From Bacillus cereus (GTDB lineage: Bacteria; Bacillota; Bacilli; Bacillales; Bacillaceae_G): a stretch of 64,000 nucleotides of DNA. The notes under the pieces are model-generated. The model made no database searches and was not told where the DNA came from. It was given only the letters and a program-made list of their open reading frames with translations. Below, one piece after another: positions 22,943 to 42,712 of the stretch (positions are counted from its first letter, which is position 1; every line of letters begins with the position of its first letter). The stretch is from positions 1 to 64,000 of the forward strand of contig NZ_NUOT01000029.1 of NCBI RefSeq assembly GCF_002584535.1. The letters run 5' to 3'. The translations under genes were made by a program, and so were the position numbers.

Positions 22943-23110
22943 TTTATAAAGGGGATTGGGGAAATAAAGTTGCTTAATTTTTTACTAATGGGAAGGGGGG
23001 GACAATCCAATTCCCATTCGCTTTACTTTATGACTTTATTATATAAAATACGGGTAATAGAAACTATCGAATTAGCTTACAGTAAGATTACAAATTTGTA
23101 AGGTGAGAAC
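22943..23110 (-). other. Decayed member of the small-peptide gene family (promoter and 3' flank remain)
   Basis: The minus strand has the full conserved 40-bp promoter element, starting CTTACA at about 23109 and ending CGATAGT near 23066, with TATAAT at the standard 59-bp offset. It also has the family's 3' flank (TTTCCCCAATCCCCTTTATA), but between them no peptide of the family can be read. The only ORF is about ten codons. A deletion of the coding part is the simplest reading. Confidence 0.6.
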
Positions 23111-23175
23111 AAAGTATTTCATTCTACAAAATAGTTTATTTTTCGGGAAATAAAAAAGCAGCTTTTTGTCGAAAG

Positions 23176-23853
23176 CTACTTTAAAGAAGTGATTCTTTTA
23201 TTAATGAATTGAATGCATAGTAAGAAAATGAGTGACATACCAACTGTTATGATAACTAGTGTCCAAGCTAACTGCATGTTACTTGCATCAATTGCCATAT
23301 AAATGGCTGTAGGAATTGTTTGTGTTTTTCCTGGAATGTTACCAGCAAACATAAGTGTTGCTCCAAATTCCCCAAGTGCACGTACAAAGCTTAAGATCAT
23401 TCCGCTAAGTAATGCGGGGAATGCCAGTGGCAATGTGACATGTACGAAGACTTGGTATTCACTAGCTCCAAGGTCACGGGCACCGTCCTCAATTTGCTCG
23501 TTTGCAATAGAAAACCCTGTCTTTGCCGATTGATACATAAGTGGGAATGAAACGATTGTTGAAGCGATGACAGCAGCCCACGATGTAAACATAATAGACT
23601 GTTGAAATAATGATTCAATCCACTTACCAACTGGGCTGTTATTCCCGAAAATAATAATGAGAAAAAACCCAATAACAGTTGGTGGAAGCACCATTGGTAA
23701 TAGAAAAATAGTTTCTAACAACACTTTATAACGCCGCGAAGAGCGCGCTAACACTCGTCCAATAACTGTGCCGAAAATCATAACAATAATGGTAGCGAGT
23801 GCGGCCACTCGTAAAGAAAGAAAAACAGGCGACCAAAGTGTATCAAATGTCAT
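23176..23853 (-). CDS. modB: Molybdate ABC transporter permease
   Basis: A 225-residue inner-membrane permease with five or six helices. The EAA loop EQIEDGARDLGASEYQVFVH (about residues 135-155) and the ending RALGEFGATLMFAGNIPGKT are typical of ModB. It starts 5 nt after the modA stop. No modC ATPase gene is in the neighbourhood, as in the B. subtilis yvgLM locus, so the ATPase must come from elsewhere. Confidence 0.93.
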   Translation of the reverse strand: MTFDTLWSPVFLSLRVAALATIIVMIFGTVIGRVLARSSRRYKVLLETIFLLPMVLPPTVIGFFLIIIFGNNSPVGKWIESLFQQSIMFTSWAAVIASTIVSFPLMYQSAKTGFSIANEQIEDGARDLGASEYQVFVHVTLPLAFPALLSGMILSFVRALGEFGATLMFAGNIPGKTQTIPTAIYMAIDASNMQLAWTLVIITVGMSLIFLLCIQFINKRITSLK

Positions 23854-23858
23854 AGTAG

Positions 23859-24665
23859 TTAAGGGAGGATTGTAAATCCATATTTTTTAAAGATAGATTG
23901 TGCATCTTTTGACTGTAAATATTCATAGAATGAAGTCGCCTCTTTCTTATGCTTGGATTCTTTTATAACTCCTGCAGGATAGTGGATAGGTTCATGAGAA
24001 ATAGCGGGTGCTGCAGCAGCTATTTTTACTTTATTTGAAATAAGAGCATCAGTTTTGTATACAATACCAGCGTCTACATTACCTGTTTCTACATATGTTA
24101 ACACTTGGCGGACGTCTTTTGTAAATACAATTTTGTTTTGTAGATCGTTCCATAGATTTTCATGTGTAAGAGAAGCCTTTGCGTATTTTCCAGCTGGTAC
24201 GGATTCAGGTGTACCGATTGCTAATTTCTTTACTTTATCTTCTTTCAACTCTTGAAATGTTTTAATAGAGCTTTCTTTTGGAACGACTAAAACAAGTTCA
24301 TTTCCAAGAAGATTTTTCCCCTCTTTTTCATTAATAATCCCTTTTTTTACAAGTGTTTGAAATTTATCTTCTGCTGCAGAGAAGAATAAATCAGCAGGGG
24401 CTCCTTGTTCAATCTGCTGCTGAAGTGCACCAGAACCGCCAAAGTTAAAGGAAAGCTTTATATTGGGTTCTTTTTGTTTATATTGTTTTTCGATTTCTTT
24501 GAAAGCATCTTGTAAACTGGCAGCTGCAGATATTGTAAGTTCAACTGTTTTGTTTTCTTTAGCATTTGTTTTTTCTTTCTTTTCTCCACTTGTACAAGCA
24601 GTGCTAAATATAAGAAGGAAAGAAAGCATGAATACCCCAATGTACCGTAATGTAAATTTGTTCAT
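23859..24665 (-). CDS. modA: Molybdate-binding lipoprotein
   Basis: A 268-residue periplasmic-type binding protein with signal peptide and lipobox FSTAC (Cys24). The mature domain begins VELTISAAASLQDAFKEIEK, with the oxyanion-binding serines in AAASL and NFGGSGALQQQIEQGAPADL, the family hallmark. It captures molybdate or tungstate for ModB. It is transcribed leftward from a promoter overlapping a long A/T palindrome. Confidence 0.94.
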   Translation of the reverse strand: MNKFTLRYIGVFMLSFLLIFSTACTSGEKKEKTNAKENKTVELTISAAASLQDAFKEIEKQYKQKEPNIKLSFNFGGSGALQQQIEQGAPADLFFSAAEDKFQTLVKKGIINEKEGKNLLGNELVLVVPKESSIKTFQELKEDKVKKLAIGTPESVPAGKYAKASLTHENLWNDLQNKIVFTKDVRQVLTYVETGNVDAGIVYKTDALISNKVKIAAAAPAISHEPIHYPAGVIKESKHKKEATSFYEYLQSKDAQSIFKKYGFTILP

Positions 24666-24707
24666 AAATAAAATCCCCTTTCTCTTTCTTCTGTTTAATT
24701 ATAACTA

Positions 24708-24744
24708 ATTATATTTAATTATAAATAGATATAATTAAATATAA
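24708..24744. promoter_or_regulatory. A/T palindrome between modA and its divergent regulator
   Basis: ATTATATTTAATTAT and ATAATTAAATATAAT flank a short ATAGAT centre. The near-perfect 37-bp inverted repeat lies in the divergent promoter region and is the likely operator of the adjacent molybdate-type regulator. Confidence 0.6.
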
Positions 24745-24825
24745 TGTGAAGTAAATCACTTTTTGAAAATATAGGAGAAATTTTCTTTCTTTGTTACAAT
24801 GAAAAGAGAAAGTGAGGAATCGTCT

Positions 24826-25746
24826 ATGGATCATCATTCCTACACAACGGAAGAAGTAGCAAACCGATTAAAAGTCTCAAAGTTAACAGTGTATGATTTA
24901 ATTAAAAAAGGTAAACTCCCTTCTTACAGAGTTGGTAGACAAATGCGCATTGATGCAGCGGATTTAGAACAATATATTAAGCAAATGAAAACTGGGAAGA
25001 TTCAAGATGTTTCTATAAAAATAGAGAAGAAGGATGGAAAAGCTTCCTGTGTCATTAGTGGGCAAGAGTTAACATTAGATATGCTAGCGAAGCATCTTGA
25101 AAGACTTTTACCAGGCTCTAGTATGCTCCGAGCTTATCAGGGGAGTTTAATGAGCTTAATTAAAATGTCTCAAGGAGAAGGAAGTATCGTTAGTTTACAT
25201 TTGTTTGATGGTGATACAAGGGAATATAACATTCCGTATGTAAAACGAATTTTAGTTGGACAGCCTTGTATTGTCATAAACTTACTAGCAAGAAATGTAG
25301 GGTTTTATGTCCAAAAAGGAAATCCAAAAGGAATACAAACGTGGGTTGACTTGAATCATTCATCGATTCAATTTGTGAATCGTGAAAAAGGATCAGGAAT
25401 TCGAGTGTTAGTAGATGAACAAGTGAGAATTCAAAATATAGCGAAAGCAAATATTCGAGGATATGATTGGGAAGAGTCAAATCACCTTGGAATTGCCTCG
25501 CAAATTGCTAACGGAAAAGCTGATGTTGGCGTAGGTTCAGAAAAGGTAGCGCAAATTGTGAATGTAGATTTTATTCCGCTGATGAAAGAACAATATGACT
25601 TGGTAATCTTAAAAAATAAAGAAAATGAACAACTTATTGAAGCAGTGAAAGAAATATTACAATCTACAGAATTTCAAAATGAACTGCGAGCAATTGGCGG
25701 ATATGATATAAGTAACACAGGTCAAATTATATATGAAACAAATTGA
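24826..25746 (+). CDS. Helix-turn-helix / substrate-binding-domain regulator of the mod genes (YvgK-like)
   Basis: A 306-residue protein: an N-terminal excisionase-type helix-turn-helix (YTTEEVANRLKVSKLTVYDL, KKGKLPSYRVGRQMRID, residues 4-50), a short middle domain, and a C-terminal periplasmic-binding-protein-like domain (about 115-300). The same architecture occurs in B. subtilis YvgK beside modA/modB. I infer that it senses molybdate or tungstate and represses modAB. Start 24826 has GTGAGGAAT upstream; the in-frame ATG at 24799 has no ribosome site. Confidence 0.82.
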   Translation: MDHHSYTTEEVANRLKVSKLTVYDLIKKGKLPSYRVGRQMRIDAADLEQYIKQMKTGKIQDVSIKIEKKDGKASCVISGQELTLDMLAKHLERLLPGSSMLRAYQGSLMSLIKMSQGEGSIVSLHLFDGDTREYNIPYVKRILVGQPCIVINLLARNVGFYVQKGNPKGIQTWVDLNHSSIQFVNREKGSGIRVLVDEQVRIQNIAKANIRGYDWEESNHLGIASQIANGKADVGVGSEKVAQIVNVDFIPLMKEQYDLVILKNKENEQLIEAVKEILQSTEFQNELRAIGGYDISNTGQIIYETN

Positions 25747-25788
25747 AAAAGCTGCTTGTCTATATAAGACGAGCAGCTTTTTCTATAT
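25746..25788. terminator. Bidirectional terminator
   Basis: AAAAAGCTGCTTGTCT / AGACGAGCAGCTTTTT with loop ATATA separates the regulator from the convergent small-peptide operon. Confidence 0.85.
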
Positions 25789-25810
25789 AAAGGGGATAGG
25801 GGAAACAATT

Positions 25811-25915
25811 TTATAAGACAAGTCCTTGAGCAAGTGCATAAATAAAAGCTGTAAGAAGAGCTGCACCGCTTGCAAGTCCGATAAAGTCAAATTTGTTAAA
25901 AGTAATGTTGTTCAT
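25811..25915 (-). CDS. Small hydrophobic peptide, class A (34 aa)
   Basis: The peptide begins MNNITFNKFDFIGLASGAAL and ends LTAFIYALAQGLVL. It has a short polar N terminus and one hydrophobic helix with a small-residue GLASGAA segment. Near-identical paralogues lie at 28387-28482 and 29452-29547, and the core (D-F/L-I/L-G-x-A-S-G-A-A-x-L-T-A) recurs in the array at 58231-58868. An AAGGAGAG ribosome site precedes the ATG. It is the second gene of a two-gene operon. Function is unknown; a membrane-active or signalling peptide is possible. Confidence 0.75.
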   Translation of the reverse strand: MNNITFNKFDFIGLASGAALLTAFIYALAQGLVL

Positions 25916-25927
25916 TGTAATCTCTCC

Positions 25928-26029
25928 TTATTTGTTTAATATAGTCGCAACCGCTTTTGCATCAATCAGAGCGGATAGCACCATGCTCATTGTATTTAGA
26001 AATTTGTTTGTTTTCATTTTGTTCATCAT
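25928..26029 (-). CDS. Small amphipathic peptide, class B (33 aa)
   Basis: The peptide begins MMNKMKTNKFLNTMSMVLSA and ends LIDAKAVATILNK. It is cationic at the N terminus and amphipathic after that. The SALIDAKAV core recurs in the peptides at 28496-28552 and 42433-42510. AAAAGGAGCGG precedes the ATG. It is the first gene behind the conserved promoter at 26104-26143; the class A gene follows 12 nt after its stop. Confidence 0.72.
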   Translation of the reverse strand: MMNKMKTNKFLNTMSMVLSALIDAKAVATILNK

Positions 26030-26078
26030 GCGTATCCGCTCCTTTTCGAATGTTTGTTGTTGCCCTGTTTCTGTCTTA

Positions 26079-26143
26079 ATTATATGAAATATAGGCAGGG
26101 GTAACTATCGAATTAGCTTACGTAAGAATTACAGTTTTGTAAG
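26079..26143 (-). promoter_or_regulatory. Conserved BceR/YxdJ-type promoter (copy 2)
   Basis: On the minus strand, CTTACA-AAAC-TGTAA-TTCTTA-CGTAAG (26143 downward) is followed by CTAATTCGATAGT, and TATAAT lies 59 bp from the first base. TTACA-N4-TGTAA is the operator core known for Bce-type response regulators; the element ends where a -35 box would be, so activation is expected. Confidence 0.75.
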
Positions 26144-26172
26144 AAAAAAAGACATTCGTGTAAGAATGTCTC

Positions 26173-27039
26173 TTAAAGCATATTGATATGATGATGCTCT
26201 TCAATTGTTTTTAAAAAGCTACGCATCGAATTTGTCATATAGGCATCTTTCCGGCGTATAAAGACAGTTGAAATGCTCCCGTACTTTTCAGGGATCGGAT
26301 GGCAGTGAACTTTGCCCATAGCAGAAAGATGCCTAACAGCCGATTGTGGTACAAGTGTAATCCCAAGGCCGAGTGCAACGCTATTTAAAATGGTCTCTAG
26401 TATGTTAAATTCCATAATTCTTTTTGGAAGCAATCCTTCATCTTTGAGCCAGCGTTCTAGTTTGGAACGATATCCACATCCTTGATTAAAGACAAGAAGT
26501 GGCGTTGTAATAAATTCCTCTATATGAAAAGCTTTATTTTGTGTGACGAGGACAAGTTGCTCTGTACAAACATCGTATTGTTCTAATAATGGATGTTTAA
26601 TAGGGCCTGATATAAAAGCGCCATCTAATTGATGATCGATTACTTCTTTAATAAGCGCCTCTGTTAAACCAGCTTGCAGTGATAAATCGACATTTGGGTA
26701 TTTTTTGTAATAAGAAGATAGGATAGTAGGTAACGTACGTACTGTTTCGACTGTACCGATTTTTAAAATGCCGGATGGAGTCTCATTATCTAGAAATACT
26801 TGTTTTAATTCTTCAATATCTTGCAAAATTTTATGAACGTAAACAAGCATTTTTCTGCCTTCTGCATTTAATGTCATCCCTTTTTTATGGCGATAAAAAA
26901 GGGGTGTTTTGAGCTCATTTTCTAATTGTTTAATGCGTGCTGTTACATTAGATTGTACATAATTCAGCTCTTTTGCTGCGTTGCTAACACTGCCGTGGTT
27001 TGCTACGCTTTGAAAGATTTGTAAGTCTCGTAATTCCAC
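26173..27039 (-). CDS. LysR-family transcriptional regulator
   Basis: A 288-residue regulator with the N-terminal winged helix ([40 protein letters not shown]) and a C-terminal effector domain. The start is the GTG at 27039, eight bases after AAGGAGGAA; an ATG at 27069 would place the ribosome site inside the gene. It is divergent from an EamA transporter, and a perfect palindrome between them is the likely autoregulatory and target site. The effector is unknown. Confidence 0.9.
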
Positions 27040-27060
27040 TACGTATTCCTCCTTGATATT

Positions 27061-27083
27061 AACTATCATTATAAATGATAGTT
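27061..27083. promoter_or_regulatory. Perfect palindrome between lysR and the EamA transporter
   Basis: AACTATCATT-ATA-AATGATAGTT is a perfect 23-bp inverted repeat containing a T-N11-A-type LysR site, about 22 bp upstream of the lysR start codon and in front of the divergent transporter gene. Confidence 0.7.
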
Positions 27084-27177
27084 AACATCATTTTGAATCA
27101 TTTTACGTGATATATTTTTTCTTTTACAATTCTCATTGTGCAATGCATCAAGAGTTACATAGAAGCGGGGGATTACG

Positions 27178-28146
27178 GTGAGAAAAGGCCAAATGATGAT
27201 AGGAGCGCTGGCATGTTTAATCGCAAGCATGTCATGGGGAGCAATGTTTCCAGTTGCAGATCATGCACTAGAGTATATAGATCCATTTTATTTTTCATTC
27301 ATTCGTTACGGGGCAGTAACGATAGCGTTAGTTTTACTATTATTGATGAAAGAAGGCAAGGAGGCATTTCGTTTAGAAGGAAAAGGAAAGCTACTCGTCT
27401 TCTTCGGAACAATGGCATTTACTGTATATAATGTACTTGTTTTCTTAGGACAAATGTTAATGGGGAAACCTGGGGTTATGGTAGCATCTATTATGGAAGC
27501 ACTTATGCCGATGATTTCAATTTGCATCTTATGGGGATATAAGCATATCAAACCGAAAAAATATATGATGACAGGTATGATCATAGCTTTTATTGGAGCT
27601 GTTTTTGTTATTACGAAAGGTGATATGAGTTTCTTTCTTACATTGAAAGATAATCTGTTTTCGTTAGCATTTATTTTTATCGGTGTTGTGGGATGGGTAG
27701 TTTATACGATGGGGGGTCAATCCTTTAGTGACTGGTCGACACTTCGCTATTCTACATTGACGTGTTTATTTGGGACTGCTGTAACAGGTGTCATAACGAT
27801 GATAATTACAATGTTAGGATATGTGCTGGTACCGAGTATGGAAACGATTTCTATCGTCAAGTACGATTTATTGTTTATGATGACATTACCAGGTATTGTA
27901 GCACTGCTTACTTGGAACTACGGCGTAAAAATTTTATCATCTATAAACGGGATTCTATTTATTAACTTTGTGCCAATTACTACATTGGTCATTATGATGA
28001 TACAAGGATATAAAATAACAATTTTTGATATAGTAGGAACACTGCTTGTTATTACAGCACTCATCCGAAATAATGTATGTCAGCGTAAAGAAGAAAATAA
28101 AAATAAGCATATTTTGCAAGAGGAGCAGTTACGCCAAGCTGTCTAA
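27178..28146 (+). CDS. EamA-family (DMT) transporter
   Basis: A 322-residue membrane protein with ten predicted helices in two EamA halves (ALACLIASMSWGAMFPVADH at the start; a repeat begins near residue 165 with FSLAFIFIGVVGWVVYTMGG, quoted from LFSLAF). The family exports amino acids or other metabolites. It starts GTG with GCGGGG upstream and has a charged C-terminal tail (CQRKEENKNKHILQEEQ). Control by the divergent LysR protein is likely. The substrate cannot be read. Confidence 0.88.
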   Translation: MRKGQMMIGALACLIASMSWGAMFPVADHALEYIDPFYFSFIRYGAVTIALVLLLLMKEGKEAFRLEGKGKLLVFFGTMAFTVYNVLVFLGQMLMGKPGVMVASIMEALMPMISICILWGYKHIKPKKYMMTGMIIAFIGAVFVITKGDMSFFLTLKDNLFSLAFIFIGVVGWVVYTMGGQSFSDWSTLRYSTLTCLFGTAVTGVITMIITMLGYVLVPSMETISIVKYDLLFMMTLPGIVALLTWNYGVKILSSINGILFINFVPITTLVIMMIQGYKITIFDIVGTLLVITALIRNNVCQRKEENKNKHILQEEQLRQAV

Positions 28147-28173
28147 TAGACAATGCATTTGGGGGATTTCTAT

Positions 28174-28314: not shown

Positions 28315-28320
28315 TAAGAA

Positions 28321-28351
28321 AGACGACCGGGCATAGACGGTCGTCTTTTTA
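28321..28351. terminator. Terminator, EamA operon / convergent peptide operon
   Basis: AGACGACCG / CGGTCGTCT with loop GGCATAGA and T5. An almost identical hairpin is at 29385-29414, showing that the two peptide loci share flanking sequence by duplication. Confidence 0.85.
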
Positions 28352-28386
28352 TTACTATTTATATAAAGGGGAAAGGGGACACAAAT

Positions 28387-28482
28387 TTATATGAGCGTAG
28401 CAGCATAAATGAAAGCTGTAAGAAGAGTCGCGCCGCTAGCTAATCCAATAAAATCTTGTTTGTTAAAAGTAATGTTATTCAT
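28387..28482 (-). CDS. Small hydrophobic peptide, class A (31 aa)
   Basis: The sequence is MNNITFNKQDFIGLASGATL followed by LTAFIYAATLI. It differs from the paralogue at 29452-29547 by two residues (Gln9 for Phe, and Ala18-Thr19 for Ser18-Ala19 order) and from the 25811 copy mainly at the C terminus. A GGAAAGAATATCT leader, a weaker ribosome site than in the paralogues, precedes it. It is the second gene after the class B peptide at 28496. Confidence 0.7.
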   Translation of the reverse strand: MNNITFNKQDFIGLASGATLLTAFIYAATLI

Positions 28483-28495: not shown

Positions 28496-28552
28496 TTACT
28501 TGTTTAATGAATGAGTAACTGCTTTTGCATCGATCAGAGCGGAGAACATCAT
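28496..28552 (-). CDS. Small peptide, class B, shortened (18 aa)
   Basis: MMFSALIDAKAVTHSLNK keeps the SALIDAKAV core but lacks the cationic N-terminal half of the 25928 paralogue. GAAAAAGAGC is a weak ribosome site. It could be a functional minimal form or a decaying copy. Confidence 0.5.
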   Translation of the reverse strand: MMFSALIDAKAVTHSLNK

Positions 28553-28599
28553 GCGTGTCTGCTCTTTTTCAAATGGTTGTTTGTTACTTTCTGACTTAA

Positions 28600-28663
28600 T
28601 TGTATAAAATGTAGAGAGCAGTTACTATCGAATTAGCTTACAGAAAGATTACACTTTTGTAAG
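28600..28663 (-). promoter_or_regulatory. Conserved BceR/YxdJ-type promoter (copy 3)
   Basis: On the minus strand, CTTACA-AAAG-TGTAA-TCTTTC-TGTAAG then CTAATTCGATAGT, and TACAAT 59 bp from the first base. Confidence 0.75.
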
Positions 28664-29381: not shown

Positions 29382-29384
29382 GAA

Positions 29385-29451: not shown

Positions 29452-29547
29452 TTATATAAGCGTAGCAGCATAAATGAAAGCTGTAAGAAGAGCAGAGCCG
29501 CTAGCTAGTCCAATAAAGTCAAATTTGTTAAAAGTAATGTTGTTCAT
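29452..29547 (-). CDS. Small hydrophobic peptide, class A (31 aa)
   Basis: The sequence is MNNITFNKFDFIGLASGSAL followed by LTAFIYAATLI. An AAGGAGAG ribosome site precedes it. It is a paralogue of 25811 and 28387. Between its promoter and its start the class B gene has been lost: the leader CAGAAAGTAACAACAAACAT joins directly to CGAGTAAGGAGAG. Confidence 0.72.
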   Translation of the reverse strand: MNNITFNKFDFIGLASGSALLTAFIYAATLI

Positions 29548-29593
29548 TATATTCTCTCCTTACTCGAATGTTTGTTGTTACTTTCTGACTTAA

Positions 29594-29657
29594 TTGTATG
29601 GGATATAGAGAGTAGTCACTATCGAATTAGCTTACAGAAAGATTACATTTTTGTAAG
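29594..29657 (-). promoter_or_regulatory. Conserved BceR/YxdJ-type promoter (copy 4)
   Basis: On the minus strand, CTTACA-AAAA-TGTAA-TCTTTC-TGTAAG then CTAATTCGATAGT, and TACAAT 59 bp from the first base. It drives the single class A peptide. Confidence 0.75.
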
Positions 29658-34430: not shown

Positions 34431-36836
34431 TTACTTTACAGTTTCTACTTCATACATGGCTTTTAATGATTTGGTTTCTAGCGCTTGTCCCCAAGCTTCT
34501 TCATATGTGTTGCGGGCCTGCTGGAAACGTTCATTTAGCGTAGTGACCATGTTTTCATCTTGCAGCATTTCTTTTATATGATCTAATCCCATTCGTTCTA
34601 CCCAAGGGGCTGTTCGTTCACCGTAAATACCGGTTTCACGGTAATATTGTACATAAGCTGTAGCGATGCGAAGCACATCTTCTTCTGTAGGGACAATCAT
34701 TACAAAATCAGCTTCGCGAACTTCTGTACCACCGTTACCACCAATATAAAGTTGGAATCCATTTTCAACACAAACGACACCGAAGTCTTTCGTTAATGCT
34801 TCTGCACAGTTACGTGGACAACCGGTTACACCCATTTTCATTTTGTGCGGTGTATCTACCATTTCTAACGATTGTTCAAGTAACATACCAAGGCCTAATG
34901 AATCTTTTGTACCGAAGCGGCAGAAACGAGAACCGACGCATGATTTTACATTGCGAAGGGATTTCGAATAGGCATAACCAGAAGTCATATCGAGGTCAGC
35001 CCAAACTTTTGGTAAATCCTCTTTCTTAACACCGTATAAGCCGATTCGACTTGCACCTGTTATTTTAACGAGCGGCACATCGTATTTTTTCGCAACTTCA
35101 GCAATTTTCATTAAATCATCTGCAGTAGTAACACCGCCGTACATACGAGGAATAACGGAAAATGTGCCATCATGCTGAATATTACCGTTCATTCTTTCAT
35201 TAACGAAGCGGGATGATTTATCATCTGCATATTCTTCTGGACGTGCCATACGCAAATAGTAGTTTAATGCAGGACGGCATTTGGAACAGCCGTCTTCATG
35301 TGCGAAACTAAGGACGTTTCGTACTTCTTTTGGTGATTTTAATCCTTTCTCATGAATTGCTGCGACAACTTCGTCACGCGACAAAGTTGTACATCCGCAC
35401 ATACCTACATTTTGAGCAGATGCATCAAAGCTATCACCGAGTGTATGGGATAAAATTTGTTCGACAATAGGACGGCATTTTCCGCATGAACCAGCAGCTT
35501 TTGTACACCCTTTTACTTCTTCAAAGGTGTTTAAATCTTGTTCTAAAATGGCATGAACAATTGTTCCTTTTGTAACACCATTACATCCACAAACAGTGTC
35601 GTCAGCACTCATACTTGCAACGTCAAGGCCATTCTCTTCGCCAGCTCTATGAAGAAGAGAAGCTGGTGTGTATTCTTGTATATCTTCTTCCTTTTTTAAC
35701 ATACTAAAGAGGCGTGTACTGTCAGCAGTATCTCCATATAAAACAACGCCAACGACTTTATTGTCACGAATTAATACTTTTTTATAGGAACGAGTACATT
35801 CATTAAAGACGGAGATTGCTTTTGCCCTATCATCTTCATAAATTTGTCCAGCAGAAAATAAATCACATCCTGCAACTTTAAGTTGTGTACCCACAATACT
35901 TCCTGCATATCCATCTGTTTGTGAGTTCGTTATATGTTTTGCTAATACGGTTCCTTGTTCATATAGAGGAGCAACAAGACCATAAGCAATCCCATCATGC
36001 TCTGCGCATTCACCAACGGCATAGATGGATTCATCATCTGTTTGCATGTAATCATTTGTAACGATGCCGCGATTTACAATTAAACCAGCATCTTTTGCTA
36101 ACTGTGTATTAGGTCGTATTCCAACAGCCATTACCACTAAATCGCATGCTACAATACTATTGTCTTCAAATTGAATTCCTTCAACATGGTCAGTACCAAG
36201 AATTTTCACCGTTTTCTTTTCCATAAGAAATTTCATGCCTTGTGCTTCTAAGTCTTCACGTAGTAATGAAGCAGCTTTAGCATCAAGTTGTTGCTCCATT
36301 AAGTAAGGCATTAAATGAACAACGTGTACATCCATTCCTAAGTCAATAAGCCCGCGTGCTGCTTCTAAACCGAGCAATCCTCCGCCAATGACAACGGCTT
36401 TTTTATATTGCTTAGCAGCATCTATCATAAATTGGGTATCTTCTATTGTCCGAAAACCTGTTACACCTGGAAGTTCTGAACCTTCAATAGGTAAAATAAA
36501 AGCGCTAGAGCCCGTTGCAATAATGAGTTTGTCGTACATAACAATTCGATTCTTTTCTGTAGCAATAACTTGTTCTTCACGATCAATATTTTTTACCTTT
36601 TCATTTGTATACAGTGTAATATCATTTTCTTCGTACCAACTGTATTCGTTCATAATGATATCTTGGATATTTGTTTTTCCTTGTAAGACGTGAGATAGCA
36701 TAATACGATTGTAGTTTGGATGAGGTTCATCACCAAAAATAGTAATGTCATAAAGCTTCGTATCTTGTTTTAAAATTTCTTCAATGCAGCGAATGCCGGC
36801 CATGCCATTCCCGATCATGACTAAACGTTTTTTCAT
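34431..36836 (-). CDS. nirB: Assimilatory nitrite reductase (NADH) large subunit
   Basis: An 801-residue flavoprotein that reduces nitrite to ammonium. In order: FAD-binding start (VMIGNGMAGIRCIEEI), NAD-binding AVVIGGGLLGLEAARGL near residue 140, two BFD-like [2Fe-2S] domains (VCGCNGVTKG...CGKCRP; CGCTTLS...CSKCRP), and the siroheme/4Fe-4S half with SCVGSRFCRFGT and GVTGCPRNCAEA. The start is uncertain between ATGs at 36842 and 36836; the latter fits the AAGAGGGGAA site better. A candidate FNR box lies upstream. Confidence 0.95.
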   Translation of the reverse strand: MKKRLVMIGNGMAGIRCIEEILKQDTKLYDITIFGDEPHPNYNRIMLSHVLQGKTNIQDIIMNEYSWYEENDITLYTNEKVKNIDREEQVIATEKNRIVMYDKLIIATGSSAFILPIEGSELPGVTGFRTIEDTQFMIDAAKQYKKAVVIGGGLLGLEAARGLIDLGMDVHVVHLMPYLMEQQLDAKAASLLREDLEAQGMKFLMEKKTVKILGTDHVEGIQFEDNSIVACDLVVMAVGIRPNTQLAKDAGLIVNRGIVTNDYMQTDDESIYAVGECAEHDGIAYGLVAPLYEQGTVLAKHITNSQTDGYAGSIVGTQLKVAGCDLFSAGQIYEDDRAKAISVFNECTRSYKKVLIRDNKVVGVVLYGDTADSTRLFSMLKKEEDIQEYTPASLLHRAGEENGLDVASMSADDTVCGCNGVTKGTIVHAILEQDLNTFEEVKGCTKAAGSCGKCRPIVEQILSHTLGDSFDASAQNVGMCGCTTLSRDEVVAAIHEKGLKSPKEVRNVLSFAHEDGCSKCRPALNYYLRMARPEEYADDKSSRFVNERMNGNIQHDGTFSVIPRMYGGVTTADDLMKIAEVAKKYDVPLVKITGASRIGLYGVKKEDLPKVWADLDMTSGYAYSKSLRNVKSCVGSRFCRFGTKDSLGLGMLLEQSLEMVDTPHKMKMGVTGCPRNCAEALTKDFGVVCVENGFQLYIGGNGGTEVREADFVMIVPTEEDVLRIATAYVQYYRETGIYGERTAPWVERMGLDHIKEMLQDENMVTTLNERFQQARNTYEEAWGQALETKSLKAMYEVETVK

Positions 36837-36913
36837 ATTCATTTCCCCTCTTAAATGTGAAATGTTTAACAATCTTTTATACTCGTATTATAAAATCTTT
36901 GGAAAATGGAGGG

Positions 36914-36981: not shown

Positions 36982-37046
36982 CTTACAAAAATGTAAGGGA
37001 AATGTAAGAGGATTGAATGGCATAATTGAGCGCTTCTCTTTAAAAT
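36982..37046 (+). promoter_or_regulatory. Conserved BceR/YxdJ-type promoter (copy 5, before yxeA)
   Basis: CTTACA-AAAA-TGTAA-GGGAAA-TGTAAG then AGGATTGAATGGC, with TAAAAT 59 bp from the first base. It points at the YxeA-family gene. Confidence 0.7.
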
Positions 37047-37085
37047 AAGTTTATAGAACACATATTGTGTGAGGAGGTTACTACC

Positions 37086-37457
37086 TTGGGGTGGGAAAAA
37101 GTAAAAAAGCGAGTGATTATTACTGGAATTGCGATAGTAGCTGCGATTGTACTGCTCCTACCAACACAGTTTGGTCCAGTAATTGATAAATATAATCCAT
37201 TTTATAAAACGAAGGAATATTATACGGTTGTAAATAGTATCGGTCAGCACATTGGCGATGATTGGTACGAATATGAATTTGTTGCATATGACGAAAAAGG
37301 AAGAGAACAAAAGATAAAGAAAACTGTAAAACATATGCTAAAAAAGGATGAAACATTGAAAGTTTTCGCAAAAGGACGTTATGGTGAATCGTTAGTAGAG
37401 ATTGAGCCTCAAAATATACCTGTGCAGGCGAGAAGTAAGATTATAGAGACGAGATAA
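37086..37457 (+). CDS. yxeA: YxeA-family small exported protein
   Basis: A 123-residue protein with one N-terminal membrane or signal segment (VIITGIAIVAAIVLLLPTQF) and a compact exported domain (TKEYYTVVNSIGQHIGDDWY, GREQKIKKTVKHMLKKDETL, ending near VEIEPQNIP) typical of the YxeA (DUF1093) family. In B. subtilis yxeA sits in the Yxd antimicrobial-peptide-response regulon. The start is TTG 37086, eight bases after GAGGAGG. Confidence 0.85.
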   Translation: MGWEKVKKRVIITGIAIVAAIVLLLPTQFGPVIDKYNPFYKTKEYYTVVNSIGQHIGDDWYEYEFVAYDEKGREQKIKKTVKHMLKKDETLKVFAKGRYGESLVEIEPQNIPVQARSKIIETR

Positions 37458-37492
37458 AGTAAACTTTTCATGTGCGAAATACTTGTAAGAGT

Positions 37493-37557
37493 AACTATTA
37501 AATTACATTACAGGTACCTTACAGTTTTGTAATGTATGTGTAAGATAATTCAATAGT
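37493..37557 (+). promoter_or_regulatory. Conserved promoter (copy 6) with an overlapping inverted copy of the element
   Basis: On the plus strand, CTTACA-GTTT-TGTAA-TGTATG-TGTAAG then ATAATTCAATAGT (37518-37557), with TACAAT 59 bp from the first base. On the minus strand the same TTACA-N4-TGTAA core is reused in an element from 37533 to 37494 (ending TTTAATAGT), but no -10 is found at the right place there. Confidence 0.65.
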
Positions 37558-37576
37558 TGTTATTTATGAATTCTAT

Positions 37577-37697
37577 TACAATACAAGTAGAAAGTTTAAA
37601 AATATAACTTTCTGTTTGAAATGATGATGAATGTTTGAAAACCAACTAACTATTGAATAAGCCTTATCTCATAGAGAGATGGGGCTATTTTTTTAAA
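37577..37697 (+). ncRNA. Predicted short transcript without a clear peptide
   Basis: From the promoter at 37518-37582 to the terminator at 37658-37696 only about 100 nt would be transcribed. The only ATG ORF is six codons (MMMNV-type). It may be a decayed peptide gene or a small RNA. Confidence 0.35.
37658..37697 (+). terminator. Terminator
   Basis: AAGCCTTATCTC / AGAGATGGGGCT with loop ATAG is followed by ATTTTTTT. Confidence 0.75.
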
Positions 37698-37698
37698 C

Positions 37699-37763
37699 CT
37701 TACAACATTGTAAGGTTTACGTAAGTTAATTCGATGGCTTGTTTGTCATATTTTTTGCATAAT
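37699..37763 (+). promoter_or_regulatory. Conserved BceR/YxdJ-type promoter (copy 7)
   Basis: CTTACA-ACAT-TGTAA-GGTTTA-CGTAAG then TTAATTCGATGGC, with CATAAT 59 bp from the first base. Confidence 0.75.
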
Positions 37764-37811
37764 AGAAAAAGATAAGAAATTAGGGAGATACGAAGAAGGG
37801 AGAAGAATGGG

Positions 37812-37925
37812 ATGCGAAAAGAAGAAGTAGTGAAGTTTCAGATAAAAGATTTCTGTAGCTACTTTACTGTTGCCGCAATATGTATTGGACTTTTTGATAT
37901 AATTACAAACTTAATTGTTAAATAA
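37812..37925 (+). CDS. Small hydrophobic peptide, class C (37 aa)
   Basis: The peptide begins MRKEEVVKFQIKDFCSYFTV and ends AAICIGLFDIITNLIVK. It has a charged N terminus, then one membrane-length helix with two cysteines. GGGAGAAGAATGGG precedes the ATG, and a terminator follows at once. It is not clearly homologous to class A or B but shares promoter, size and layout. Confidence 0.68.
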   Translation: MRKEEVVKFQIKDFCSYFTVAAICIGLFDIITNLIVK

Positions 37926-37937
37926 TATAGATGATAA

Positions 37938-37968
37938 AACAAGAAGGAGATCCCTTCTTGTTTTTTTA
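37938..37968 (+). terminator. Terminator of the class C peptide gene
   Basis: AACAAGAAGG / CCTTCTTGTT with loop AGATC and a T7 run. Confidence 0.88.
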
Positions 37969-38019
37969 TTGCTTTTCATGTGGAATAGCATATTAAAATA
38001 GATGTGAGAGGTGATAGGA

Positions 38020-38784
38020 ATGAAGTGGATTGATAGTCATATACATTTGGACCAATATGAGAATAAAGAGCAAATGAAATTAATTGATGATGTGAAAAGA
38101 AGTGGTGAGATTGATGGATTAGTTGCAGTATCAATGAACTATCATTCTTGTCAAAAAACATTATCTTTAGCAAAACAATATCCATTTGTATATCCGGCAC
38201 TGGGGTTTCATCCAGAACAGATGATTAATAAAAAAGAATGTGGACAAATTTATAAGTTAATTGAAGCAAATGTAGAACGACTTGTTGCGATAGGTGAGAT
38301 TGGCTTACCATATTATTTACGGCAAGAAAAGAAAGATATTGCAATAGACCCTTACATTGAAATATTGGAGAGGTTTGTGGCTTTAGCAAAACGGTACGAC
38401 TTACCAATTGTGTTACATGCAGTTTATGAAGATGCTGATATTGTATGTGATGTACTTGAACAGTATGAGATTTCACGTGCGCATTTTCATTGGTTTAAGG
38501 GAAGTAATGAAACGATGGAACGAATGATTCAAAATGGGTACTATATTTCTATTACACCGGATATTATACAGAAGGAGAAAATTAGAAAAATCGTATCGTT
38601 CTATCCGCTAGAATATATAATGGTAGAAACTGATGGACCATGGCGGTTTTATGAGAATGTCATGACGCATCCAAGTATGATTCAAGATGTATTAAAAGAA
38701 ATAAGTTTGATAAAAAATATTCCTATAGATAAGGTTGCAGAGAAAATTTATGAAAATACAGTTCAATTTTATTTGAAAAGGTAG
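38020..38784 (+). CDS. TatD-family metal-dependent hydrolase
   Basis: A 254-residue TIM-barrel hydrolase of the TatD (DNase/amidohydrolase-like) family. The metal motif IDSHIHLDQY is N-terminal, AIGEIGLPY carries the bridging Glu (about 91), LPIVLHAV and RAHFHWFKG carry histidines, and VETDGPW the final Asp (about 207). It starts at ATG 38020 with GAGAGGTGAT upstream rather than GTG 38011. The substrate is not known. Confidence 0.88.
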   Translation: MKWIDSHIHLDQYENKEQMKLIDDVKRSGEIDGLVAVSMNYHSCQKTLSLAKQYPFVYPALGFHPEQMINKKECGQIYKLIEANVERLVAIGEIGLPYYLRQEKKDIAIDPYIEILERFVALAKRYDLPIVLHAVYEDADIVCDVLEQYEISRAHFHWFKGSNETMERMIQNGYYISITPDIIQKEKIRKIVSFYPLEYIMVETDGPWRFYENVMTHPSMIQDVLKEISLIKNIPIDKVAEKIYENTVQFYLKR

Positions 38785-38816
38785 TAGATAAAAGGTCTCG
38801 CTTATATTTGGAATAA

Positions 38817-38852
38817 ACAATGCCAAGCACGAGTTGATGCTTGGTATTGTTC
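38817..38852. terminator. Bidirectional terminator
   Basis: CAATGCCAAGCA / TGCTTGGTATTG around CGAGTTGA lies between the tatD-family gene and the convergent DUF2334 gene. Confidence 0.8.
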
Positions 38853-40498
38853 TAGGATTCAAGTTGTTTTGCACGTTGTATTAATAAAAGAAATACAATC
38901 AAGAAAACTCCAAGGATGAGAAAAAAGCCATACTTTTGTAGGGTGTTCATCGTGTTACTTAAGGAAAAAGGCTTATCAATCTCGATCCCATCTTTATTAG
39001 AAGTAATGTGGATATCCCTCGTCTTCACTTTATTCGATTCTGTTTGTAAATCGATCCATTCTATATTTGGAATACTTTCTAATTCACTTAATAGTTCTTT
39101 GAAAGGTTTAATCCCTAAGTATGGATGATAGAAGGCACCGATTATCCCATCTGATAGCTTTGTAAATGATAATGCACGTTCCTTCATTTCAGTAGAAGCA
39201 TGAGTGTTTCCCTCTTCTATAAAACCGACTGTTTCAGGAAGCAACTTCATTCCATGCAAAAATGATGGTGTACTTGTAAAGGCTGGTGAGTGCATAGTTT
39301 TCCATGTTGTATCACCTAATTGTAATTGCCCTATATAAGTTGAAAAGTAACGTGATAATATTTCGTATCCTTTTTGTGATATTGCATAGTGCGGTGCTTC
39401 AAAAGCGAGTGGGTATAATTTAGCTACTGTGAGTTCTTCAATTCCTTTTTCAATATGTTCTGTTATATATGTTTCTTCGAATTTTTTACCGTTTTCTATG
39501 TATTCGTTATAAGAAGCATCTGATTCAAAATCCTGTCTCGTTTTCAATTGTTCATGATTGGGATAAAGGATAGGTTGATCCGTTTTTACATCCCAAAATT
39601 CAAAACCCTCACCTGTTTCACTATCATAAAATTGATGGGTATAGCCATGCATCACAATGGAGCCACCGTTGTCCTGCATAAAACGTAATACGTCTATTAA
39701 TTCTGGTTTATCTTGTAAATGGATTGTTTTTCCTGTATCTGGATCTGTGTAGACTGGGATAACAGTGAGCATATAGGGGATTTTTTTTCCCTTTAATAAC
39801 TCGGCAATCTCTTTTAATTGTTTTATATCTGATGCCGGATGAATATCTTCTAAGCGTAAATAAGCTCTATGTTTATTTGTTTCAGGACTTTGCTGAAAAT
39901 AAGAAAAGAGCATTTCACCAACATAATGAGATGTCCAATCAAAAAGCTGAGATGTCGCTACATAATAGGATTGATTTTGTTTCACGATAAAGGGATATGT
40001 CCCGTTTGAGCTTAGCGCATATGCAAGAGGTTTTTCGGTTGTATCAAGTTGTCTAATTAATCGTTCCTCATGTAATTTATTTTTAAGTTGATGTGTTGGG
40101 TACGTTATAGTGTTAATTCCTATATCTTCTTTTTTTAATGTAATAAAAGAAAAACGATTAGGTAATTGTTCTATGTTTTGACCAAGAAATAGTACAGGCC
40201 CTGAAAAGCTCTCTAGAAATTGTTTCGTTTCAGCAGAGATTTGCTCTTTTTTTTCGCCCACGTAAATCACATGCGTATAAGAAGGGGTAGTAACTTCATT
40301 TGCTTTTTTTGAATTTTTTATGGTTATATCATTTGTAAAATGGCCTATTAAAGTATTTAAAATCTGTATATCATTTGTAATTTGTCCGTTTTCTGCGCTG
40401 TATAAAACCAATACTTTTGGTTTTTTTGTTGTTTGAGCAGAGGTATGGATAGGAATGAGTAGTAAAGTAGTGAGAAAAAGTAATAACTTTCTTTTCAT
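38852..40498 (-). CDS. DUF2334 polysaccharide-deacetylase-like membrane protein
   Basis: A 548-residue exported protein: signal peptide (LLLFLTTLLLIPIHTSAQTT), a domain with VLVLYSAENGQITNDIQILN at the start, then a DUF2334 deacetylase-like region (about 205-420) with RLEDIHPASD, VIPVYTDP, VMHGYTHQF and FEAPHYAIS, which hold the Asp/His metal-ligand pattern of carbohydrate esterase 4 relatives. A C-terminal membrane helix (YGFFLILGVFLIVFLLLIQR) anchors it outside. It may act on a cell-surface polysaccharide; the substrate is unknown. Confidence 0.82.
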   Translation of the reverse strand: MKRKLLLFLTTLLLIPIHTSAQTTKKPKVLVLYSAENGQITNDIQILNTLIGHFTNDITIKNSKKANEVTTPSYTHVIYVGEKKEQISAETKQFLESFSGPVLFLGQNIEQLPNRFSFITLKKEDIGINTITYPTHQLKNKLHEERLIRQLDTTEKPLAYALSSNGTYPFIVKQNQSYYVATSQLFDWTSHYVGEMLFSYFQQSPETNKHRAYLRLEDIHPASDIKQLKEIAELLKGKKIPYMLTVIPVYTDPDTGKTIHLQDKPELIDVLRFMQDNGGSIVMHGYTHQFYDSETGEGFEFWDVKTDQPILYPNHEQLKTRQDFESDASYNEYIENGKKFEETYITEHIEKGIEELTVAKLYPLAFEAPHYAISQKGYEILSRYFSTYIGQLQLGDTTWKTMHSPAFTSTPSFLHGMKLLPETVGFIEEGNTHASTEMKERALSFTKLSDGIIGAFYHPYLGIKPFKELLSELESIPNIEWIDLQTESNKVKTRDIHITSNKDGIEIDKPFSLSNTMNTLQKYGFFLILGVFLIVFLLLIQRAKQLES

Positions 40499-40782
40499 GT
40501 AGATAGTCTCCTATTCTTTGTGTGGAATTCAATTTACAATTATATATAAAGGAAAAGATGGAATCCATTTGAAATGGATATTGGAAAACATTACATATAG
40601 AAAAGATGGGAAGGAATGTTACATTTTTTATAAAGTTTCATAATTTGTTTTTCAGAAAACCAGTCTAAAGCATGATGTGAAGGTGGATGATTGTTTGGTA
40701 TGATTTAAGAGTAATAGAATGCAGGTGATTGTAAGGAAAGGCTGAAAGGGGACAAATTTCAGCATAGAAAGAGGTAGAGGTA

Positions 40783-41316
40783 GTGAAAAAATTCTTTGTA
40801 GGGTTTTTAGTTGTTCTTGGGGTGTATTTGTATTTTCAAGGAGAGTCTGAAGGAATGGAAAGATTCATGAATCAAACAAGTTATGTTGATTCAGAGGAAG
40901 TAAAACAAATGAAGCAAATTATTACTGAAGAAGCAAAGAAAGTAAATCTGCCAGAATGGATACCTCTTACAATTGCCGAGCATGAAAGTCGTTTCAACCC
41001 ACGGAGTGTTGGAGACAATGGCACTTCTTTTGGATTGTTTCAGTTACATAGAGGTGGGGGGCTTGCTCCTGATAACTTAACGGACGAGCAGTTGAAAGAT
41101 CCACGGACAAATGCCCAAATTGCAATGCCTCATTTAATGAAAGGGTATAAAAGAGGTGTACAAAAAGGACTGACAGACCTTGAATTACTAAAATATATAG
41201 CAAATACGTCCGGTTGGCCTGGCAATCTAGGGACTGAGTGGACGGATCAAAATATGAAGTATAACGTTGGGCTAGAGGACGTGTACTATCGAAATAAAGG
41301 GACAATGAAGGAGTAG
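40783..41316 (+). CDS. Lytic transglycosylase-like (SLT domain) protein
   Basis: A 177-residue protein with an N-terminal membrane segment (FFVGFLVVLGVYLYFQG) and a lysozyme-like SLT domain (about 45-165). IAEHESRFNPRSVGDNGTSF carries the catalytic Glu, and GLFQLHRGGG follows. It starts at GTG 40783 after AGAGGTAGAGGTA. It probably cuts peptidoglycan glycan strands at the outer face of the membrane. The upstream gap (40500-40782) shows no other feature. Confidence 0.85.
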   Translation: MKKFFVGFLVVLGVYLYFQGESEGMERFMNQTSYVDSEEVKQMKQIITEEAKKVNLPEWIPLTIAEHESRFNPRSVGDNGTSFGLFQLHRGGGLAPDNLTDEQLKDPRTNAQIAMPHLMKGYKRGVQKGLTDLELLKYIANTSGWPGNLGTEWTDQNMKYNVGLEDVYYRNKGTMKE

Positions 41317-41343
41317 GTGCTAAACACCTACTCTGTTTTTTTA
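41311..41343 (+). terminator. Terminator of the SLT gene
   Basis: GAGTAGGTG / CACCTACTC with loop CTAAA is followed by TGTTTTTTT and includes the stop codon. Confidence 0.85.
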
Positions 41344-41356
41344 TGAAGAAAGTTCA

Positions 41357-42130
41357 TCATTCTTTATCTGTATGTATAAAATATCGTTCAAGTTGCTCTT
41401 TTACATCTTCTAATTTGGTAGAAACCTGTGGAATTTTGTAACCGACATATAATGGTGAAACAACAAAACGAGGAACCACTTTACAAATAATCTTTCCGGA
41501 AAGATGATAGAAGAATAAGTTATAGCTGCTACATCCTTTATGAAAATCTGCTAGTATGTAACGCACAGTTTGCTGAATATAATGTGCCATCATATCGATT
41601 GCTTTTATGTCTTCAATGATAATGTTAAACTCGGTGAAACCAATAATTGGTCGTGTAGAGATATTAAGTTCAATTTGGTCGTCTTTTCTTACAGTCACGC
41701 CTTGAAAGTTTTCAGGTGCTATGTTTTCCTGGTAGTCTACATATTTCATTCCGATGATTTGCATATGCGCATGATGCAAACTTCCACCTGAAAATGGACC
41801 ATGATTTTTATACAAAATAACAGATGTAAATTTATTGCTATTTTCTAACGCTAGCCAATGTTTAATAGAGAAGCGAATTAACTTTCTCATGTGTTCGGAT
41901 GTGTAGGTCGCAATATGATCATCACAATTATCCGTTTCGATAAGAACTGTCTGGAACGTATCTTTCAGTGTTGGAAATTTATTTTGTAACCAGATGATAG
42001 AGCTGTCTGTTTCTAAAAGATCAGTAAGGTTTTCCGTATCGCAAAAAGGACAAGCTGTATTTTTATTACGGATGCTTTCCGGTTTTTGCTTGCCGATATC
42101 ATTTAAAAAATAAAGTTGTTGTGTATCCAT
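41357..42130 (-). CDS. DUF4931 / galactose-1-phosphate uridylyltransferase-like HIT protein
   Basis: A 257-residue protein with a zinc-type CPFCDTENL motif (about residue 27) and GGSLHHAHMQIIG (about 115), the HxHxQ active-site pattern of the GalT branch of the HIT superfamily. It resembles the DUF4931 family of bacilli. It may transfer or hydrolyse a nucleotide, but the substrate is unknown. It starts at ATG 42130 with AAAGGGGCA upstream. Confidence 0.78.
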   Translation of the reverse strand: MDTQQLYFLNDIGKQKPESIRNKNTACPFCDTENLTDLLETDSSIIWLQNKFPTLKDTFQTVLIETDNCDDHIATYTSEHMRKLIRFSIKHWLALENSNKFTSVILYKNHGPFSGGSLHHAHMQIIGMKYVDYQENIAPENFQGVTVRKDDQIELNISTRPIIGFTEFNIIIEDIKAIDMMAHYIQQTVRYILADFHKGCSSYNLFFYHLSGKIICKVVPRFVVSPLYVGYKIPQVSTKLEDVKEQLERYFIHTDKE

Positions 42131-42251
42131 TCGTATATGCCCCTTTGAAAGTATATGTAAAATTCCCGTCTACTATATTCGTGAAAAGAAAGGAGAAATC
42201 CTTTATAGTGAGAAAATGAGAAGGAAGGGGCCACAACTTTTAATAGAAAAA

Positions 42252-42299
42252 ACAAAAGACCAAATATCCTAATTATATGAGGGTATCTGGTCTTTTATT
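42252..42299 (-). terminator. Terminator of the three-peptide operon
   Basis: AAAGACCAGATACCCT / AGGATATTTGGTCTTT on the minus strand is followed by TGTTTTTTC. Confidence 0.8.
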
Positions 42300-42417
42300 T
42301 TTTCTGTAATAATGTGTATGGATAATATAGCGTATTTTCATTCTGTTTCTTTTTTCTATTTTTCAGTGTGTGTAAGGCAAAGATTGTACCTACAATTGTA
42401 AAGATGGCTTTCTTCAT
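42295..42417 (-). CDS. Small cationic peptide (40 aa), third gene of peptide operon
   Basis: The peptide begins MKKAIFTIVGTIFALHTLKN, a short hydrophobic helix, and continues RKKKQNENTLYYPYTLLQKK. AAAGGGGAAATG precedes the ATG, 15 nt after the class B gene. No relative was recognised in the window. Confidence 0.68.
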   Translation of the reverse strand: MKKAIFTIVGTIFALHTLKNRKKKQNENTLYYPYTLLQKK

Positions 42418-42432
42418 ATTCATTTCCCCTTT

Positions 42433-42510
42433 CTATTGTTCATTTAATTCTTGGCTAACTGCTTTGGCGTCAATTAAAGCATGTAGAATCATTTTTACCA
42501 TGTTCATCAT
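42433..42510 (-). CDS. Small amphipathic peptide, class B (25 aa)
   Basis: The sequence is MMNMVKMILHALIDAKAVSQ plus ELNEQ. The ALIDAKAV core matches the peptides at 25928 and 28496. AAAAAGGAGTGA precedes it; an in-frame ATG two codons upstream (42516) is an alternative start but is very close to the ribosome site. Confidence 0.72.
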   Translation of the reverse strand: MMNMVKMILHALIDAKAVSQELNEQ

Positions 42511-42526
42511 TTTCATTCACTCCTTT

Positions 42527-42607
42527 TTATAGTAGGTTTAGTTCTTTTACAACTGCTTGTCCATTTACTAATACCTCGAAGATTGCTTTTACGATATCTT
42601 TTATCAT
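42527..42607 (-). CDS. Small amphipathic peptide, class B-like (26 aa)
   Basis: The sequence is MIKDIVKAIFEVLVNGQAVV plus KELNLL. It aligns with class B (VLVNGQAVVKELN against ALIDAKAVSQELN), so the operon carries two diverged copies in tandem. GGGAGGAATTAATC precedes the ATG. It is the first gene after the conserved promoter. Confidence 0.7.
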   Translation of the reverse strand: MIKDIVKAIFEVLVNGQAVVKELNLL

Positions 42608-42647
42608 GATTAATTCCTCCCGTTATCTGTCTCTTGTTTACATCTTT

Positions 42648-42712
42648 ATTGTATAAGGAGGAGTCATTTCGTACTATCGCTTTCCATTACGTGAACATAA
42701 CAGTTTTGTAAG
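42648..42712 (-). promoter_or_regulatory. Conserved BceR/YxdJ-type promoter (copy 8)
   Basis: On the minus strand, CTTACA-AAAC-TGTTA-TGTTCA-CGTAAT then GGAAAGCGATAGT, with TACAAT 59 bp from the first base. Confidence 0.72.

Follow-up and report, generated by a model that had tools for sequence, protein, structure and literature searches.

Eight copies of a Bce/Yxd-type promoter ahead of micropeptide genes, a YxeA-family gene and two units lacking an open reading frame in Bacillus cereus

A 64,000-nucleotide stretch of Bacillus cereus DNA (assembly GCF_002584535.1, contig NZ_NUOT01000029.1, positions 1 to 64,000; hereafter the window) carries eight copies of one extended promoter element within about 20 kb. 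An earlier note on this DNA held that the targets are nearly all tiny peptides. Five of the eight units do encode such peptides; one encodes a YxeA-family protein, and two contain no credible open reading frame (ORF). The evidence largely supports a dispersed promoter set of the Bce/Yxd type with an unusual output, namely three DUF3948 peptides, other micropeptides and the two ORF-less units.

The promoter element

Read from its first base, the element consists of CTTACA-N4-TGTAA[T/G]-N5-[T/C]GTAAG, a tail of CGATAG or CGATGG (CAATAG in copy 37518, GAATGG in copy 36982) and a -10 at offset 59. The core TNACA-N4-TGTAA is the operator core of the BceR, PsdR and YxdJ response regulators. The response-regulator sites of B. 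cereus described by de Been in 2008 may already include this motif.

The copies, numbered 1 to 8 and otherwise named by their first base, lie at 23037-23102, 26078-26143, 28598-28663 and 29592-29657 on the minus strand, at 36982-37047 (ahead of the YxeA-family gene), 37518-37583 and 37699-37764 on the plus strand, and at 42647-42712 on the minus strand. All were found at the places named beforehand with at most three mismatches, save that the first starts at 23102 and not at 23110. Mismatches to the 27-bp pattern number zero in five copies, one in 26143 and 37699 (both CGTAAG) and three in 42712, the most divergent. The inverted core is exact in seven copies; 42712 has TGTTA. All eight lie outside the 14 main ORFs listed. 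A poor further match to the pattern occurs at 57979-58005 (minus strand), and a second copy at 37507-37533 (minus strand), with a poor -10, overlaps copy 37518 on the opposite strand.

The spacing is as strict as had been claimed: a -10-like hexamer begins at offset 59 in every copy (TATAAT, TATAAT, TACAAT, TACAAT, TAAAAT, TACAAT, CATAAT and TACAAT). At spacers of 16-18, the best -35 agrees with TTGACA at no more than three of six bases in seven copies and at four of six in 36982. The element ends where a -35 would lie, which, as proposed before, would point to a need for an activator. By information content, half-sites lie at offsets 10, 21 and, in degenerate form around TCGATG, 32, that is, in 11-bp steps, with the inverted half at offset 0.

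Such a set is not expected by chance. The 27-bp pattern with up to three mismatches has 15 matches in the window (both strands counted, several places twice), against a mean of 0.26 in dinucleotide shuffles. A scoring matrix was built from 71 non-redundant foreign loci, drawn from 96 with the commonest spacing and with nothing from the window. It ranks exactly these eight copies as the top eight places in the window (53.2, 49.3, 50.7, 49.7, 50.0, 44.6, 49.7 and 36.2 bits for copies 1 to 8); the ninth, the opposite-strand place at 37533, scores 20.6 bits, and the best of 100 Markov windows 8.5. The training loci had been required to fit the earlier pattern; the reverse test described below answers part of this concern, yet it uses the same matrix. 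Scored by the tail alone (offsets 27-58), every copy ranks within the top 0.25% of the window's positions. There are 12 occurrences of the bare core TNACA-N4-TGTNA, eight of them the copies, whereas 200 Markov windows have a mean of 2.0 and a maximum of 6.

The same layout in other genomes

A scan of genome collections with the pattern, allowing the -10 to begin 30-34 bp on, yielded at least 120 loci; the counts in this paragraph and the next refer to the 120 matches listed. By their titles, these belong to Firmicutes or uncultured kin except for three (Treponema, Micavibrio and Bacteroidales). Between the pattern and the -10 lie 32 bp in 96 of the 120, 33 in 16, 31 in 5, 30 in 2 and 34 in 1. 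A BceA-like ORF lies 40-500 bp downstream of the 66-bp layout in 64 of the 120, compared with a mean of 2.6 and a maximum of 8 for randomly chosen places in these loci and 0/120 on the opposite strand. An ORF of 200-260 amino acids (aa) resembling an OmpR-type regulator is present in 46/120; one of these, compared with solved structures, ranked the PhoB family top.

The first ORF led by a ribosome site could be named in 111 of the 120 loci, 63 being BceA-type. Among the 48 others, the YxeA family is the next commonest target (9), along with 5 CmpB-like proteins, 4 more ATP-binding cassette (ABC) ATPases, 2 BacA/UppP, 2 PAP2, 2 transglycosylases and 1 MprF-type domain; single cases, with no evident connection, include a sugar nucleotidyltransferase and a methyltransferase. 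Much of the target repertoire of the foreign loci is that of peptide-antibiotic defence. In eight loci (L011, L015, L023, L028, L061, L067, L078 and L100) the first ORF encodes a hydrophobic protein of 35-73 aa (peak hydropathy at least 1.6), and small membrane proteins are thus a recurrent output of this promoter.

As the pattern had been imposed by the scan, BceA genes were also picked by protein alone. At E 1e-80, 52 of 150 genomes of the order gave 65 matches, and the best match of 30 genomes was used, with 300 bp upstream of each gene searched at a cut of 10 bits. The extended element lies upstream of 27 of the 30 genes; elsewhere in the same loci the maximum is 8.8 bits. These promoters have AT at offsets 35-36 in 26 of 27 and TANNNT at offset 59 in 16, the other 11 having it solely at 58 or 60. 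That the same layout precedes BceA-like genes in both samples supports the Bce-type control proposed in the earlier note, and the assignment of the promoter to the Bce type is well supported.

The third half-site differs from this sample. It is TGAAAG in 16 of the 27 BceA promoters, TGTAAT in 4, TGTAAG in 2 and something else in 5. Seven of the eight copies in the window have [T/C]GTAAG, so the window copies form a sub-type. The third half-site is a possible specificity code between Bce-type paralogues.

At one mismatch or fewer, 97 of 398 Bacilli genomes carry at least one copy, and the reversed-pattern control gave none among the matches listed. Most have one to three copies, while G489 has 10, G523 and G553 have 9 each, G766 has 6, and G774 and G001 have 5 each. 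Reading the sequences of G523 identified among its targets a BceA gene as well as YxeA-like, lysozyme-like and DUF418-like genes. A dispersed set is therefore not unique to the window, although eight copies in 20 kb are still extreme. G489, G523 and G553 match 37000-38784 in short pieces alone, and a nitrite reductase-like gene (34431-36872, named by reading) has a best DNA identity of 71% in 397 genomes of the order. The plasmids and viral contigs searched yielded no relative, and among phages there were three weak matches (identity about 67%), all to query sequence lying outside the units.

Protein and peptide units

Copy 36982 precedes the YxeA-family (DUF1093) gene at 37086-37457 (plus strand), which, as read from the sequence, has a TTG start after GAGGAGG. 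The family named in the earlier note is confirmed by TIGR01655 (E 2.7e-13, 50.6 bits against a cut-off of 29.65) and PF06486 (E 3.4e-13), the frame scanned being 37089-37454.

Three minus-strand units encode DUF3948 peptides (PF13134). Behind copy 26143 lie a 33-aa peptide with an ALIDAKAV motif (25928-26029), which has no family match in protein-family scans, and a 34-aa DUF3948 peptide (25811-25915; E 1e-16, 60.7 bits). The 28663 unit repeats this order, with an 18-aa short form of the ALIDAKAV peptide (28496-28552) ahead of a 31-aa DUF3948 peptide (28387-28482; E 7.7e-15) and a terminator-like stem at 28348-28319. In the 29657 unit, another 31-aa DUF3948 peptide (29452-29547; E 2.8e-12) is followed by a terminator-like stem at 29415-29382. 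The two 31-aa peptides score 54.7 and 46.5 bits with PF13134, whose cut-off is 25. In the three pairs of these DUF3948 genes, the proportions of silent differences (pS) are 0.476, 0.375 and 0.234 and those of amino-acid-changing differences (pN) 0.167, 0.112 and 0.070, a pN/pS of about 0.3 throughout. The genes differ mainly at silent sites and are under purifying selection; translation and selection are therefore favoured.

The remaining peptide units are less uniform. Copy 37699 precedes a gene for a 37-aa hydrophobic peptide (37812-37925, plus strand) with a terminator-like stem at 37936-37964. The 42712 unit has three tiny minus-strand ORFs, encoding a 26-aa peptide (42527-42607), a 27-aa peptide in which the ALIDAKAV motif recurs (42433-42516) and a 42-aa basic peptide with a hydrophobic start (42295-42423). 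A divergent gene at 42784-42975 (plus strand) encodes a RAxF-45 family protein (NF041642, E 2e-20). By scan or fold, a terminator-like stem lies downstream in six of the eight units (23102, 26143, 28663, 29657, 37518 and 37699), and none was found in units 36982 and 42712.

Candidate small RNAs

C-rich regulatory small RNAs typically have their own promoter, an unpaired C-rich stretch, an intrinsic terminator and no ORF. The unit behind copy 23102, a candidate RNA of about 119 nt (22913-23031, minus strand) with no credible ORF, is predicted to combine these features. Its predicted fold comprises a hairpin with a C-rich loop, an unpaired CCCCAAUCCCC and a terminator hairpin at about 22945-22916. 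The whole fold has a z of -4.49, with 0/200 shuffles as stable; the 100 nt without the whole terminator have a z of -1.58. The unit behind copy 37518 is a second candidate structured RNA (37589-37690, plus strand), also without a credible ORF, with a 5' hairpin, a terminator-like stem at 37660-37686 and a fold z of -3.57.

A C-rich motif, TCCCC-N2-TCCCCTTTATA, links the first candidate to the peptide messages. It occurs exactly at 22945-22962, 25786-25803 and 28362-28379, all on the minus strand (chance 0.02), the latter two being in the 3' untranslated regions (UTRs) of the 26143 and 28663 units, and an altered form is found in the 29657 unit. The ribosome-site-like AAAGGGGA, complementary to part of this motif, stands at 42425-42432 (minus strand), upstream of the third ORF in unit 42712. 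An Rfam scan of 22600-43000 gave no relevant match; elsewhere in the window are a glmS ribozyme (6991-7146, plus strand) and a SAM riboswitch (20482-20586, minus strand).

ORF-less units might also exist behind the promoter in other genomes. Loci L222 (in G774) and L223 (in G766) are near-identical for about 155 bp from the element start and then continue into different, non-homologous hairpins. The predicted RNAs have fold z values of -4.2 and -4.1 and match no Rfam family; the L223 hairpin passes the terminator test, and the L222 hairpin fails it. For L223 the ORF listing has no ribosome-site-led frame up to 350 bp, and for L222 the first one is at offset 299. The stretch also occurs in G781, and at length in 3/61 genomes searched, G766 included.

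A tandem DUF3948 cluster without the promoter

Four further DUF3948 genes lie in tandem on the plus strand at 58231-58341, 58410-58529, 58606-58716 and 58755-58868 (E 1e-19 to 9.8e-16; PF13134 scores of 70.3, 61.4, 57.6 and 66.4 bits), with a terminator-like stem beyond them at 58926-58969. Upstream of this cluster, the best matrix score is 3.9 bits, on a scale on which the eight copies reach 42.6-60.7. Two exact copies of TTACATTAATGTTACAAACGT stand ahead of it, at 57980-58000 and 58112-58132. They hold the bare core (TTACA-N4-TGTTA) alone, to which the matrix assigns -6.8 and -8.6 bits; this pair may be the target of a different regulator.

According to a passage of PMC10196113 that names no regulator or operator for them, five adjacent DUF3948 transcripts (from genes of about 110 nt), strongly altered as a group, have the highest relative abundance in plasmid-cured B. 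cereus G9241 at 37 C. These genes belong to the same Pfam family as those of the window and are most like the 58231-58868 cluster. The G9241 result most likely concerns a tandem-type cluster and therefore gives no support for Bce-type control; its use as such support was dropped. Searches beyond the window matched DUF3948 in none of 10 genomes and in none of 14 controls; among 397 genomes there was one borderline match, with no element found beside it.

Comparison with known systems

The operator consensus of BceR, PsdR and YxdJ goes back to Dintner 2011, as cited in PMC7438565, and YxeA-type proteins accompany Bce modules according to the same passages. The window set shares with these Bacillus operators the inverted core, the YxeA target, the poor -35 and, at the foreign loci, the BceA target; it differs in the third half-site [T/C]GTAAG, in the presence of eight promoters in 20 kb and in its micropeptide and ORF-less targets. 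The GraR regulon of Staphylococcus aureus, as described in PMC3128592, likewise has an ACA-N4-TGT palindrome (likely operator ACAAATTTGT), weak -35s and several dispersed targets, but the targets named there include dlt, mprF and vraFG and not micropeptides. MadRS (YxdJK) of Enterococcus faecalis is a Bce-type system with several target operons, like the window set, whereas its targets, as summarized in PMC10614854, are transporters and envelope-modifying genes. VraH of VraDEH, a small membrane protein of a Bce-type module, resembles the window peptides by description, but it is encoded with its transporter and the window peptides are dispersed (PMC7438565). A literature search, mostly at the level of listings, found no link of DUF3948 or of these peptides to a Bce-type regulator.

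Regulator and possible mechanism

We consider it likely, at a probability of about 0.8, that the eight copies are one activator-dependent promoter type under a Bce/Yxd-type response regulator of the OmpR family, part of a two-component system that senses antimicrobial peptides and is encoded outside the window. The earlier note had seen no such regulator in the window, and this holds: the OmpR-type seed matches only a LuxR-type protein (46295-46996), and the BceB seed matches nothing. That LuxR-type gene belongs to a region (45069-48071, plus strand) in which it and a histidine kinase (HisKA_3) gene stand beside an ABC transporter gene, a two-component system unlike Bce.

In the proposed mechanism, the trigger would be a peptide antibiotic detected via a BceAB-type transporter. 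The inverted half-site pair CTTACA-N4-TGTAA[G/T] and the direct-repeat half-sites that follow 11 bp apart (offsets 21 and 32, the latter next to the non-consensus -35) would accommodate two regulator dimers side by side, and the downstream dimer might touch the -35 region and recruit RNA polymerase. Attack by a peptide antibiotic would then switch on all eight units jointly: one YxeA unit, two candidate small RNAs and five micropeptide units, of which three include DUF3948. The micropeptides would most likely serve as membrane-acting accessories or protectants.

Several observations weigh against this account. No Bce-type permease or regulator was found in the window with the OmpR-type and BceB seeds; from the third half-site, the regulator may also differ from the BceR that is commonest in the order. 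The scans imposed much of the pattern, so that bases fixed in this way do not count as evidence when they agree, and a reversed control with two mismatches and the tail misplaced by one base was matched in 2/6 genomes. Among the 120 foreign matches listed, 46 have no target recognised by six seed proteins, and 35 have neither a BceA-like nor a regulator-like ORF. Within the window, four of the seven DUF3948 genes lack the extended promoter and three stand behind it, and the helical moments of the peptides are no higher than in shuffles. Copies 23102, 26143, 28663 and 29657 are alike in sequence downstream of the promoter too, and because this common sequence extends downstream they are duplicates, not independent origins.

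Alternative explanations

The last point feeds the idea that the copies are a dispersed repeat, spread by duplication or in the manner of a miniature inverted-repeat transposable element (MITE), and resemble one another by mere ancestry with no shared regulation. Copies 1-4 share even the 3' UTR motif, and B. cereus has the repeats bcr1-bcr18 (PMC3446304). Yet copies 5-8 stand before different genes and show poor alignment downstream while keeping the promoter columns, which the foreign BceA promoters keep as well, so that this explanation appears very improbable. The element might instead belong to another regulator of the OmpR family, above all WalR (YycF). The WalR box has the consensus TGTWAH-N5-TGTWAH, and the direct half-sites TGTAAT-N5-TGTAAG, with their 11-bp spacing, overlap with it; set against the consensus, the second half-site has G as its sixth base in seven copies and C as its first base in three. 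The GraR and WalR regulons are also reported to overlap (PMC3128592). WalR control is nonetheless very unlikely: all eight copies have the inverted CTTACA half and most have a CGAT-like tail, and the layout as a whole accompanies BceA and YxeA genes.

Other doubts concern the products and leave the promoter in place. The tiny hydrophobic peptides could be type I toxin-antitoxin toxins or competition peptides that the promoter merely times, as their size (31-37 aa), their paralogous sets, the strong terminators of some and a promoter-like match on the opposite strand (29525-29553, plus strand) inside the 29547 gene might suggest. That match is weak (9/12), however, and such matches show no excess (37 against 30.7 in shuffles); by eye, the other two paralogues have no equivalent, and the peptides scanned match no toxin family. 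A toxin role is accordingly judged unlikely, and protectants are preferred. It is quite conceivable, though not favoured, that the two units without an ORF are peptide units that have decayed and not small RNAs. Copy 1 has the promoter and 3' UTR motif of the DUF3948 units without their ORFs, and a 14-codon frame in its unit, judged by eye, has no good ribosome site. Both units, on the other hand, have retained a strong element and a terminator-like stem, and their folds are more stable than those of shuffles (the first less markedly once its terminator is removed, as given above), and three other genomes have a conserved stretch with no nearby ORF behind the same promoter.

Significance

A broader scenario is speculative and rather doubtful at present. 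In it, a peptide-sensing system would have been rewired from its own pump to dispersed effectors, namely membrane-inserting micropeptides and a small RNA sharing its C-rich 3' UTR motif with DUF3948 messages, so combining peptide protection with control of translation at the RNA level. DUF3948 genes would then fall into two regulatory groups, one of them Bce-type, and Bce-type small RNAs would also exist in the lineage of G766, G774 and G781.

The finding matters in three respects. The presence of a Bce-type promoter before three DUF3948 genes and its absence at the four-gene cluster offer a likely trigger, and a built-in control, for a family without an assigned function. Bce-type regulons, centred on pumps and surface charge, would extend to micropeptides and possibly to small RNAs. 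Finally, the extended layout (inverted pair, third half-site, CGAT-like tail and -10 at offset 59) precedes nearly all of the independently picked BceA genes and is therefore usable to find such targets in other Firmicutes.

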